DNA of 64,000 nt from an uncultured Alphaproteobacteria bacterium (lineage in GTDB: Bacteria; Pseudomonadota; Alphaproteobacteria; GCA-2731375): the NCBI GenBank assembly GCA_951812805.1, contig CATOSZ010000003.1, positions 1,132,557-1,196,556 of the forward strand, given 5' to 3'. The position numbers were made by a program, and so were the translations under genes. Numbering within the stretch: the stretch's first letter is position 1; every line of letters begins with the position of its first letter. Shown one piece after another: positions 3,108 through 61,902 of this stretch. Under the pieces are notes generated by a model. The model had not been told where the DNA came from, did no database searches, and saw only the letters and a list, made by a program, of their open reading frames with translations.

Positions 3108-4160
3108 ATGTCCCAGTCCCACATCCATGTCGGTGTCGCCGGCTATGTCGGCCGCCCGGACGCGGTGGGCGCCGTCGGCGTCTTCCGCCGGCCCTGCGCG
3201 GGCGGCGCCTGGCAGCATGTGCTCGACAGCCACGAGGTTCACACCGTCTTCGTCTACCCGGACGAGCCGAGCCTGGTCTTCGCCGGCAGCAACGACGGCG
3301 TCTGGTTCAGCGGCGACTACGGCGCCACGTACGAACGGGCGCGGTTCCCCGACGACAACATGCAGATCTGGTGCTTCCTGGTTTCCGAGGCCGACCCGGA
3401 TTTGATGTATGCCGGCGCTTCACCGCTCGCGGTCTATCGCTCCCAGGACCGGGGCCGCAGCTGGAGCGAGCTCGCCGAGCCGGACATCCCCGAGCGTTGC
3501 GCCGGCCCCTTCAACCCGCGGGTCATGCGCCTGGCCGAGACGCCCGGCAAGCCCGGCGAACTTTATGCGGCGCTGGAGATCGCCGGCGCCATGCGGACGA
3601 CCGACGGCGGCGAAAGCTGGCAGGATCTCGGCGACGACCTGGTCCGCCTGTCCGACGAGCCGCATCTGCGAAGCGCGATCGTGCAGCAGGACACCCAGGC
3701 CGAGGGCATGCTCGACGGCCACGCGATCGCGATCTGCGCGGCCAAGCCGGACACGCCGATCATCGCCGTGCGCATGGGCCTGTTCTCGACCGGCAACGGC
3801 GGCTCGACCTGGGCGGACATGGACATCCGCCGCTTCTCGCCGACCACTTACGGGCGCGATATCAAGGCCTCGCCGCACGATCCCGCGACCCTCTACAGCG
3901 CGCTCTCCGTCGCGGCGGCGAGCCATGACGGCGGGGTCTATCGCTCGACCGACGCGGGCGAAAGCTGGCAGCGCTTCGACAAGGTGCAGGTCAACGGCAC
4001 CATCATGAACATCGGCCTGCACACCTCGGACCCGAACCAAGTCTATATCGGCGCGCGCTACGACGGCGAGATCTTCGGCACCCACGACGGCGGCGAGAGC
4101 TGGGAGGCGATGTCGATCCCCGGCCCGATCAAGGACATCTATGCCGTCGCCGCCGGGTGA
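3108..4160 (+). CDS. BNR/sialidase-like beta-propeller (exo-alpha-sialidase/glycosyl hydrolase-like) protein
   Basis: Repeated S/TxDxGxxW motifs: RSQDRGRSWSEL, TTDGGESWQDL, STGNGGSTWADM, RSTDAGESWQRF, THDGGESWEAM. Confidence 0.75.
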   Translation: MSQSHIHVGVAGYVGRPDAVGAVGVFRRPCAGGAWQHVLDSHEVHTVFVYPDEPSLVFAGSNDGVWFSGDYGATYERARFPDDNMQIWCFLVSEADPDLMYAGASPLAVYRSQDRGRSWSELAEPDIPERCAGPFNPRVMRLAETPGKPGELYAALEIAGAMRTTDGGESWQDLGDDLVRLSDEPHLRSAIVQQDTQAEGMLDGHAIAICAAKPDTPIIAVRMGLFSTGNGGSTWADMDIRRFSPTTYGRDIKASPHDPATLYSALSVAAASHDGGVYRSTDAGESWQRFDKVQVNGTIMNIGLHTSDPNQVYIGARYDGEIFGTHDGGESWEAMSIPGPIKDIYAVAAG

Positions 4161-26492: not shown

Positions 26493-26554
26493 GCCCAAAA
26501 GGAGTCAGGACTTGAATGTTGAATTCAACATTCAAGTCCTGACTCCTTTTGGGC
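26493..26554. repeat. 62-bp perfect palindrome (no spacer)
   Basis: gcccaaaaggagtcaggacttgaatgttgaa|ttcaacattcaagtcctgactccttttgggc. Confidence 0.95.
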
Positions 26555-29151: not shown

Positions 29152-29233
29152 CCTGGTCGGCTCGCGCCCCCGCCCCAAGCACCCATAGTGTGCACCTTTG
29201 GGGTGGTTGGGGCGGGGGCGCGAGCCGACCAGG
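29152..29233. repeat. Intergenic hairpin with 27-bp perfect stem
   Basis: cctggtcggctcgcgcccccgccccaa (29152-29178) / ttggggcgggggcgcgagccgaccagg (29207-29233). Confidence 0.95.
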
Positions 29234-48353: not shown

Positions 48354-48521
48354 CTAGCCCGCCTTTCTCCCCCTCTCCACGGCCTCAGTCGACCTGGGTC
48401 GAGTCGTCTCGGCGAGGTGCGGGCCCGAAGGCGTAGCGGGGCTACGTCGAGGGACCGCGCCTCGCCGAGCGGCCGGCCCAGGTCGACTGACGCCATGGAG
48501 AGGGGGAGAAAGGCGGGCTAG
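48354..48521. repeat. Nested inverted repeat element E (45-bp outer stem plus inner hairpin module B)
   Basis: 48354-48398 pairs with 48477-48521 (43/45); inner cggcgaggtgcgg...ccgcgcctcgccg with loop gtagcggggctac. Confidence 0.92.
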
Positions 48522-55283: not shown

Positions 55284-56161
55284 CCGCCCGGATGCGCTTC
55301 GGCTGGCTCGACGTCGTGGTCATCGGCTGCGTTGTGGCGCTGCTCGCCTATGTCGCCTACCGGGTGCATGGCCACCTCGTCTACCACTGGAACTGGGCGG
55401 AGCCGTTGCAGTTCTTCTTCCGCCGCGACGAGGCGGACGGCGGCTGGGTCCCCAACCTGCTGATCGAAGGCGTGATCATCACGCTGCGCGTCTCGCTCTG
55501 GGGGGCGGTGCTGGGCATGGCGATCGGCCTCCTCGCCGGCCTCGGCCGGATCAGCCAGGTCGCCCTCTTCCGCATGATCTCGCGCGGTTACGTCGAGCTG
55601 GTGCGCAACGTCGCACCCGTGCCCTTCCTCTTCATCATGTTCTTCTTCGTCGGCAACCAAATCCTGAAACCGCTGGGGCTGGAGGGCGTGCAGGACGCGG
55701 TATCGCCCGCCACCGGCGGGGTGCTGGAACTGATGTTCGGCGAGTTGAACCTGCTGCGCAACTTCGCCGCCGCGACCCTGGCGCTGGCCCTCTACGAAGG
55801 GGCCTATATCGCGGAGATCGTCCGTGCCGGCGTGCTGTCGATCGAGCGCGGGCAATGGGAAGCGGGCGACAGCCTCGGCCTCTCACGCCTGCATCAGCTG
55901 CGCCATGTGATCCTGCCGCAGGCCGTGCAGCGGATCACGCCGCCGCTCGCCAACCAGTCGATCCAGCTGATCAAGGACAGCTCCCTCGTCTCCCTGCTGT
56001 CGATCCAGGAGATGACCTTCATGGGCCAGGAGATCGCGCATTCGACCTCGCGCTTTTTCGAAACCTGGATCATCGTCGCGGCGATGTACTTCGTGGTATG
56101 TTTCGGCCTGTCACGGATCTACGCTCGTCTGGAACGACGCATCAACAAGAGCCGCCGCTAG
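55280..56161 (+). CDS. Polar amino-acid-type ABC transporter permease
   Basis: YVELVRNVAPVPFLFIMFFF...QWEAGDSLGLSRLHQLRHVILPQAVQRITPPLANQSIQLIKDSS. Confidence 0.9.
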   Translation: MTARMRFGWLDVVVIGCVVALLAYVAYRVHGHLVYHWNWAEPLQFFFRRDEADGGWVPNLLIEGVIITLRVSLWGAVLGMAIGLLAGLGRISQVALFRMISRGYVELVRNVAPVPFLFIMFFFVGNQILKPLGLEGVQDAVSPATGGVLELMFGELNLLRNFAAATLALALYEGAYIAEIVRAGVLSIERGQWEAGDSLGLSRLHQLRHVILPQAVQRITPPLANQSIQLIKDSSLVSLLSIQEMTFMGQEIAHSTSRFFETWIIVAAMYFVVCFGLSRIYARLERRINKSRR

Positions 56162-56426
56162 TCCGCATTTCTCACACTATCCATGGCCTCAGCGGCGCTG
56201 TGGGCCCGACAGGGAAGGAGCGCTGCGCCGTTCGATGTGGTTCATCGTACAAGCAGTGCGACGCACCCTGTCGGGCCCACAGCGCCGCCCGGAGGGTCGA
56301 CCTGGGCCGGCCGCTCGGCGAGGCGCGGTCCCTCGACGTAGCCCCGCTACGCCGTCGGGCCCACTCCTCGCCGAATCGACTCGGCCCAGGTAGACTGAGG
56401 CCATGGATAGTGTGAGAAATGCGGAC
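56161..56426. repeat. Nested inverted repeat element F (32-bp perfect outer stem enclosing hairpin modules A and B)
   Basis: 56161-56192/56395-56426 perfect; module A stem 56193-56214/56266-56287 perfect 22 bp; module B within 56297-56394 shared with element E. Confidence 0.95.
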
Positions 56427-56536
56427 TGACACGGGCAAAGACACAACCGAACATCCAAGAACCAACCATGTGCGCACCGTGCCGACGAACGGCCGGTGCG
56501 CGCACCACAAGGGTCGATCACGGGGAGGAAACAACG

Positions 56537-61634: not shown

Positions 61635-61902
61635 CTAGAGCACGGTCCGACCCTATGGAAGCGCTGGATGGCCCTGCCTGGCCGCTCGGGCAGGAGCGCT
61701 GCGCCGCGCGATGTGGTGCCATCGGGCAAGCAGCGCGACGCCCCCGAGCGGCCAGGCAGGGCCACCGAAGGCCGGGTTCTTTTGCGCCGTGGCGGCCATG
61801 GCATCGCTCACCGATACCCCGCATCGCCATCGCGATGCCATGGCCGCCACGACACAAAATCTCCCCGGTCCAGCGCTTCCATAGGGTCGGACCGTGCTCT
61901 AG
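61635..61902. repeat. Nested inverted repeat element G (34-bp perfect outer stem enclosing hairpin modules A and C)
   Basis: 61635-61668/61869-61902 perfect; A stem 61669-61690/61743-61764 perfect 22 bp; C stem 61788-61806/61833-61851 perfect 19 bp. Confidence 0.95.

Follow-up and report, generated by a model that had tools for sequence, protein, structure and literature searches.

Element F, an insertion in an alphaproteobacterial transporter operon, is probably a non-autonomous mobile element with two related, opposed hairpins

Element F is an insertion in a transporter operon and not a switch that evolved for that operon. It was found in a stretch of 64,000 nucleotides from an uncultured Alphaproteobacteria bacterium (contig CATOSZ010000003.1, positions 1,132,557 to 1,196,556), which is called the window in this manuscript. 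F is probably a non-autonomous, MITE-like element in which terminal inverted repeats enclose two related, oppositely oriented hairpins as a conserved cassette, and which is moved by a DDE transposase acting in trans. The superfamily to which F belongs behaves as a MITE, and the traits of such elements are present: they are short and non-coding, they carry terminal inverted repeats and they occur as many dispersed copies.

F lies between the permease and binding-protein genes of an ABC operon, and its first base is the G that ends the permease stop codon TAG (56159-56161), an overlap that had been noticed in the preliminary description. That description had also recognized a multi-branched palindrome at 56161-56426 with a hairpin A and a module B; the coordinates are the same in our analysis, with an outer repeat of 33 bp, a hairpin of 23 bp and a loop of 51 nt. 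The outer arms (56160-56192 and 56395-56427) are complementary at 33/33 positions in the window sequence, and the stem of module A (56192-56214 and 56266-56288) is paired at 23/23. The ends of the F type read TAGCCCGCATTTCTC. The predicted folding energy of F is -210 kcal/mol, and this value, together with the 11 full-length copies (F included, 89-100% identity) dispersed in its own genome, excludes an origin by chance. The tetranucleotide CTAG is seen 24 times in the window, versus 198 predicted from base composition alone. Over whole elements, GANTC occurs once in E, twice in F and not at all in G. The features of F and of the related elements E and G are listed in Table 1.

Table 1. Coordinates of element F, its parts and its relatives in the window.
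Feature	Position	Strand	Basis or remark
Element F, complete, G...C	56161..56426	+	266 bp; inverted arms, genome copies, superfamily ends
Left TA, within both the CTAG target (56158-56161) and the permease stop TAG	56159..56160	.	Sequence, superfamily ends
Right target dinucleotide, TA decayed to TG	56427..56428	.	Inferred from the intact CTAG of sister copies
Left terminal inverted repeat (outer arm)	56161..56192	+	Pairing; arms without strand bias
Right terminal inverted repeat (outer arm)	56395..56426	-	Pairing
Hairpin 1 (module A), functional strand +	56192..56288	+	Model match 56189-56296; 94.2 bits (R1), 89.0 bits (R2)
Linker CCGGAGG, CCCGAAGGG-like in relatives	56289..56295	.	Sister-copy and relative sequences
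Hairpin 2 (module B), related to hairpin 1 but diverged; functional strand -	56296..56394	-	Detected in sister copies L073, L077, L078, L070
Element E, same family, hairpin 1 lost, inverted relative to F	48357..48518; wider span 48354-48521	-	Hairpin 2 core 48409-48473 (+)
Element G, sister type	61638..61899; wider span 61635-61902	+	Hairpin 1 61665-61773 (+), hairpin 2 61763-61871 (-)

The search of F's own genome also returned partial copies and fragments. In an alignment of the F-type copies the ends are CTAG-like and the flanks are unrelated; the flanks of copies L077 and L078 are alike, and these two probably lie in a duplicated region. Element E is about 87-93% identical to the F-type copies across ~134 nt and lacks module A, and its hairpin 2 scores 21.8 bits with the R2 model described below. 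The left arms of E and F align over 32 nt without a gap, with 26/32 positions identical. From E to F, four C:G arm pairs have become A:T and one more T:A, with both strands changed in all five. Thus the four compensatory changes reported earlier are real and are joined by a fifth, and they are no proof of an RNA stem, given the balanced mismatches of the arms described below. The earlier view that module A had been inserted into an E-type element has its polarity reversed: because two-hairpin elements are present in tens of families, E is a derivative from which module A was deleted and not the ancestral form. One-hairpin or hairpin-deleted forms are E, L088, L304 and L306. Element G has two further full copies in the same genome (99% and 94%), and what it has in common with F is mainly the core of module A. 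Several irregular arrangements were also observed. L300 and the left flank of L304 are mini-elements (TAGAGC...GCTCTA) that consist of arms only or retain one hairpin, and they may have arisen by decay of family members. L171 carries four nested hairpins at 3513-3981 (+,+,-,-), an order that would result from the insertion of one element into another. At L105 (2350-2515), which lies at a contig end, the flanks of the element are mutually reverse complementary, most likely because the assembly folded back at the palindrome.

The wider family was traced with a tip pattern, CGATGTGGNKCATCGKNCAAG, and with two covariance models, R1, built from module A, and R2, retrained on both hairpins. The tip pattern occurs in at least 116 stretches of named genomes, nearly all of them from Alphaproteobacteria, with carriers in Roseibium, Nitratireductor, Ensifer, Pararhizobium, Aquibium, Anderseniella and Kiloniellaceae. 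Among the 80 loci listed, 52 tip matches lie inside inverted arms; most of these are elements of 260-310 bp and a few are the hairpin itself. R1 detects a second hairpin ~97 nt away on the opposite strand, also in G. Hairpin 2 of F itself is too diverged for significance with R1 or R2. R2 detects module B in F-type copies outside its training set (L073, L077 and L078, E 2e-4 to 5e-4; L070, E 0.014), and these matches show that module B is related to module A, in diverged and inverted form. A covariance-model search of relatives, suggested in the preliminary description, thus found the family well beyond the window, with R2 matches in 33 of the 289 alphaproteobacterial genomes sampled. Beyond Alphaproteobacteria, 11 genomes from other classes in the phylum had matches, with the same layout at the loci that were read. 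No Rfam family scored above its gathering threshold, the only matches being sub-threshold and microRNA-like, and a literature search of open-access papers with the motif sequences returned nothing relevant. Within the open-access literature and Rfam, the superfamily is therefore likely undescribed, which bears out the earlier remark that no named family matches it. A set of 72,556 plasmids gave one short match and phages gave none, and no viral contig carried the tip pattern. The elements are thus almost absent from plasmids and viral contigs, though genomes from the same orders commonly carry them.

The two hairpins have been selected as folded single strands, either RNA or single-stranded DNA, on opposite strands for the two. 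This follows from the covariation of their pairs and from the great excess of G.T over A.C mismatches on each hairpin's own strand. In an alignment of 99 hairpins, which was fitted to the model and is hence biased towards pairing, 95.3% of cells are paired versus 63.9% after shuffling. All 20 scored pairs have changed on both sides, with 565 double-change cells versus 139 +/- 13 in shuffled alignments. The same covariation of helix P2 was found in A1, a set of 55 sequences aligned without structure, in which a hand count gave 35 G.U and 4 A.C cells; A1 was gathered by tip sequence, so its tip helix is fixed by the pattern and invariant. In non-redundant sets the ratio of G.T to A.C is 40:10 for hairpin 1 and, on its own strand, 32:4 for hairpin 2, which was gathered with a structure model that favours G.U over A.C. 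The ratio is 74:10 in the broad set A3. Cells inherited by related copies are not independent, and binomial p values for such counts overstate certainty. The own strand folds better in 24/29 elements for hairpin 1 and in 27/29 for hairpin 2, and the bias is the same with DNA and RNA energy parameters. Next to P2, 55 hairpins have the base pair C.A, 34 have A.G and 10 have some other combination, and the unpaired residues AGG, CAAG and ACG are conserved. In the outer arms the ratio is 36:31. Such a lack of bias between G.T and A.C is expected of terminal inverted repeats whose symmetry is maintained in the DNA itself, and it is as inverted repeats that the arms persist.

Relatives of F have inserted at sites for which sister species still show the empty state. 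Element flanks from genome G006 were joined at one YTAR and searched within the genus, with 11 loci as queries. At L303, sister species G009 aligned without a gap across the junction (84% over 404 nt), and the filled site ...gaccccgcCTAG[element]CTAGgtctg... corresponds to the empty site ...gatccggcATAGcgctg... in the sister. At L296, two sister species (G002 and G009) were gap-free at the junction at 81-82%. Six matches cross the junction at L294 and are too diverged there for a base-by-base reading. The near-identical copies in G006 suggest recent activity in that genome. Insertion takes place at YTAR, in most cases CTAG, with ends consistent with a 2-bp duplication of TA. The left and right ends of 48 elements are CTAG/CTAG in 20, TTAG/CTAA in 8, TTAG/CTAG in 5, CTAG/CTAA in 3 and others in 12. 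The outer bases are unlike, with a fixed inner G and C, in 16 of the 36 elements that have plain YTAG/CTAR ends, which indicates that TA is duplicated and that the element itself runs from G to C. A 4-bp duplication of CTAG is ruled out by the unlike ends. The evidence for target duplication and for filled and empty sites comes from relatives of F, and F's own right TA is now TG. An insertion inside a gene at L102 was not used; no homologue of the joined open reading frame was found beyond the contig itself, and the frame matched no Pfam family.

The symmetric ends point to the class of enzyme only, a putative DDE transposase specific for YTAR/TA, IS1182- or IS630-like, that would act in trans. 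F's own genome holds an intact IS1182-family element (453 aa, NF033551, 356.5 bits) with the same layout of ends, Y-TA-G...C-TA-R. Rhizobial IS630 ends read Y-TA-GAGCGGGATGATTTTAG and match the arm of the MITE at L144 at 16/19 positions, and 18 of the first 19 bases are shared between the MITE arm of L383 and an IS1182-like element of Mesorhizobium AR07; these arm matches are the best picks from many families and are uncorrected for that choice. The arms of the F and G types matched no autonomous element identified, and no transposase partner with F-type ends was found. A search of 1.5 Mb for autonomous elements with F- or G-like ends 0.6-3 kb apart returned none, and the IS1182 and IS630 elements present there had other ends. 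A co-resident IS630 element was rejected as the general partner, its genes being absent in 14/20 carriers examined and in G001, G006 and G136. Three further observations concern these insertion sequences. At L084 (2939-4489) the intact IS1182 element adjoins an F-like fragment, with CTAG in common, and the left flank of the L070 copy terminates in the same IS1182 end sequence. The genome of F also contains 24 identical copies of one IS630 element with ends TA-CCAGTCGACA, unlike those of F or G, which has evidently been active recently.

Three other explanations were considered. An ordinary MITE whose hairpins are functionless, with the symmetry of arms and stems arising from template switching that copies arm onto arm during replication, predicts the balanced mismatches seen in the arms and accommodates the loss of entire hairpins in the deleted forms named above. 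However, the G.T excess on opposite strands, the conserved unpaired residues and the linked C.A / A.G pair are not among its predictions. In addition, the hairpins outlast the turnover of arms between families, and the strand bias of hairpin 1 persists when the sequences are gathered and aligned without a structure model. We therefore regard this explanation as unlikely. In a REPIN- or BIME-like system, a Y1 (RAYT) transposase would act on the opposed hairpins as REP-type single-stranded DNA, and the outer arms would be secondary. The opposed, strand-specific hairpins are indeed the layout of a REPIN, six Y1_Tnp genes are present in F's own genome, and DNA energy parameters give the same bias. 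However, none of the 20 Y1 loci examined was flanked by an element, nor was any of the six genes in F's own genome, and one weak match lay ~1 kb from a Y1 locus in a genome with more than 100 copies. The symmetric Y-TA...TA-R ends indicate a DDE enzyme, the GTAG foot or CGTC tag is absent, and the size of 260-310 bp contrasts with the 20-40 bp of REP sequences (PMC3733652). For these reasons such a system seems quite improbable.

The preliminary description had named F as a candidate for differential expression of permeases and binding protein within the ABC operon. On this view F would be a cis-regulatory RNA that sets permease versus binding-protein expression. The position of F between these genes and the very stable structure predicted for its transcript would fit such a role. 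However, 95%-identical copies and others are found at unrelated places, the family is mobile as judged by its empty sites, and the position is accounted for by the insertion target. The target CTAG contains TAG and overlaps the stop codon, and it is for this reason, and not by recruitment to the operon, that F stands directly behind the permease. F is one of many dispersed CTAG/YTAR insertions, and a dedicated regulatory function is very improbable; an influence on the expression of the operon is possible as a by-product of the insertion.

Several known repeats resemble the F family in part. MITEPsy1 of Pseudomonas syringae, which moves in vivo, is also non-coding, with inverted ends and the target CTAG/YTAA; unlike F, it is 100 bp long with a reported 4-nt duplication and 18-nt arms related to ISPsy2 (possibly of IS5 type), and a conserved double-hairpin core was not reported (PMC3189936). 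RUP of Streptococcus pneumoniae is likewise a MITE with a TA target, and its ends resemble those of a resident IS630 element, but it is a Gram-positive element of 107 bp for which paired, opposed hairpins are not described (PMC2229807). The CIR repeats of Caulobacter and Brucella share with F an alphaproteobacterial host, two hairpin arms, a linker and TA ends; compared by description, they are ~110 bp with unpaired ends and GANTC in the loop, whereas F has 266 bp and perfectly paired ends (PMC2229807). REPINs and BIMEs with RAYT also consist of hairpin pairs in opposite orientation, each on its own strand, but their units are 20-40 bp with a GTAG or CGTC tag, they use a Y1 transposase and they have no long terminal repeats (PMC3733652, PMC8266576). 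RIME and Bru-RS, compared by description only, resemble F as palindromic intergenic repeats and belong to Hyphomicrobiales, with Bru-RS listed as 103-105 bp (PMC2573895, PMC2267715).

If F is a MITE-like element as proposed, a DDE transposase of the IS1182 or IS630 kind would act in trans on the outer arms, and the hairpins would become active once one strand is exposed. The simplest case would be RNA made by read-through from a neighbouring gene. RNA polymerase arriving from either side would first meet a correctly oriented hairpin, so that the insert would supply a stable, structured end to each flanking transcript in either orientation. For ERIC, a comparable repeat, orientation-dependent effects on the stability of mRNA have been reported (review PMC2229807).

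Bacterial MITEs are usually regarded as short-lived, species-bound debris. The elements described here have a structured core that is recognizable across proteobacterial classes while the arms vary by family. Tentatively, they may represent a class of mobile elements whose inherited core is a structured nucleic-acid cassette, two related hairpins functional on opposite strands, that is conserved across proteobacterial classes and persists by swapping terminal repeats and so borrowing different transposases. If this doubtful but possible reading is true, the hairpins, as RNA or single-stranded DNA, would be active in the spread of the element or in its tolerance by the host. Base-pair substitutions reveal the strand that matters in each hairpin, and they make it a testable question whether a non-coding mobile element contains a working RNA or single-stranded DNA device. 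With the covariance model, many intergenic palindromes of Hyphomicrobiales and their relatives that lack an explanation can also be annotated.

Long palindromes of other kinds are present as well, both at Y1-transposase loci of this genome family and in the window. For example, positions 26493-26554 form a perfect 62-bp palindrome of two 31-nt arms without a loop, which contains GGAGTCAGGACTTGAA and is unlike F. The palindrome at 29152-29233 has 33-nt arms (97%) and a 16-nt loop, and by eye it is unrelated to F.
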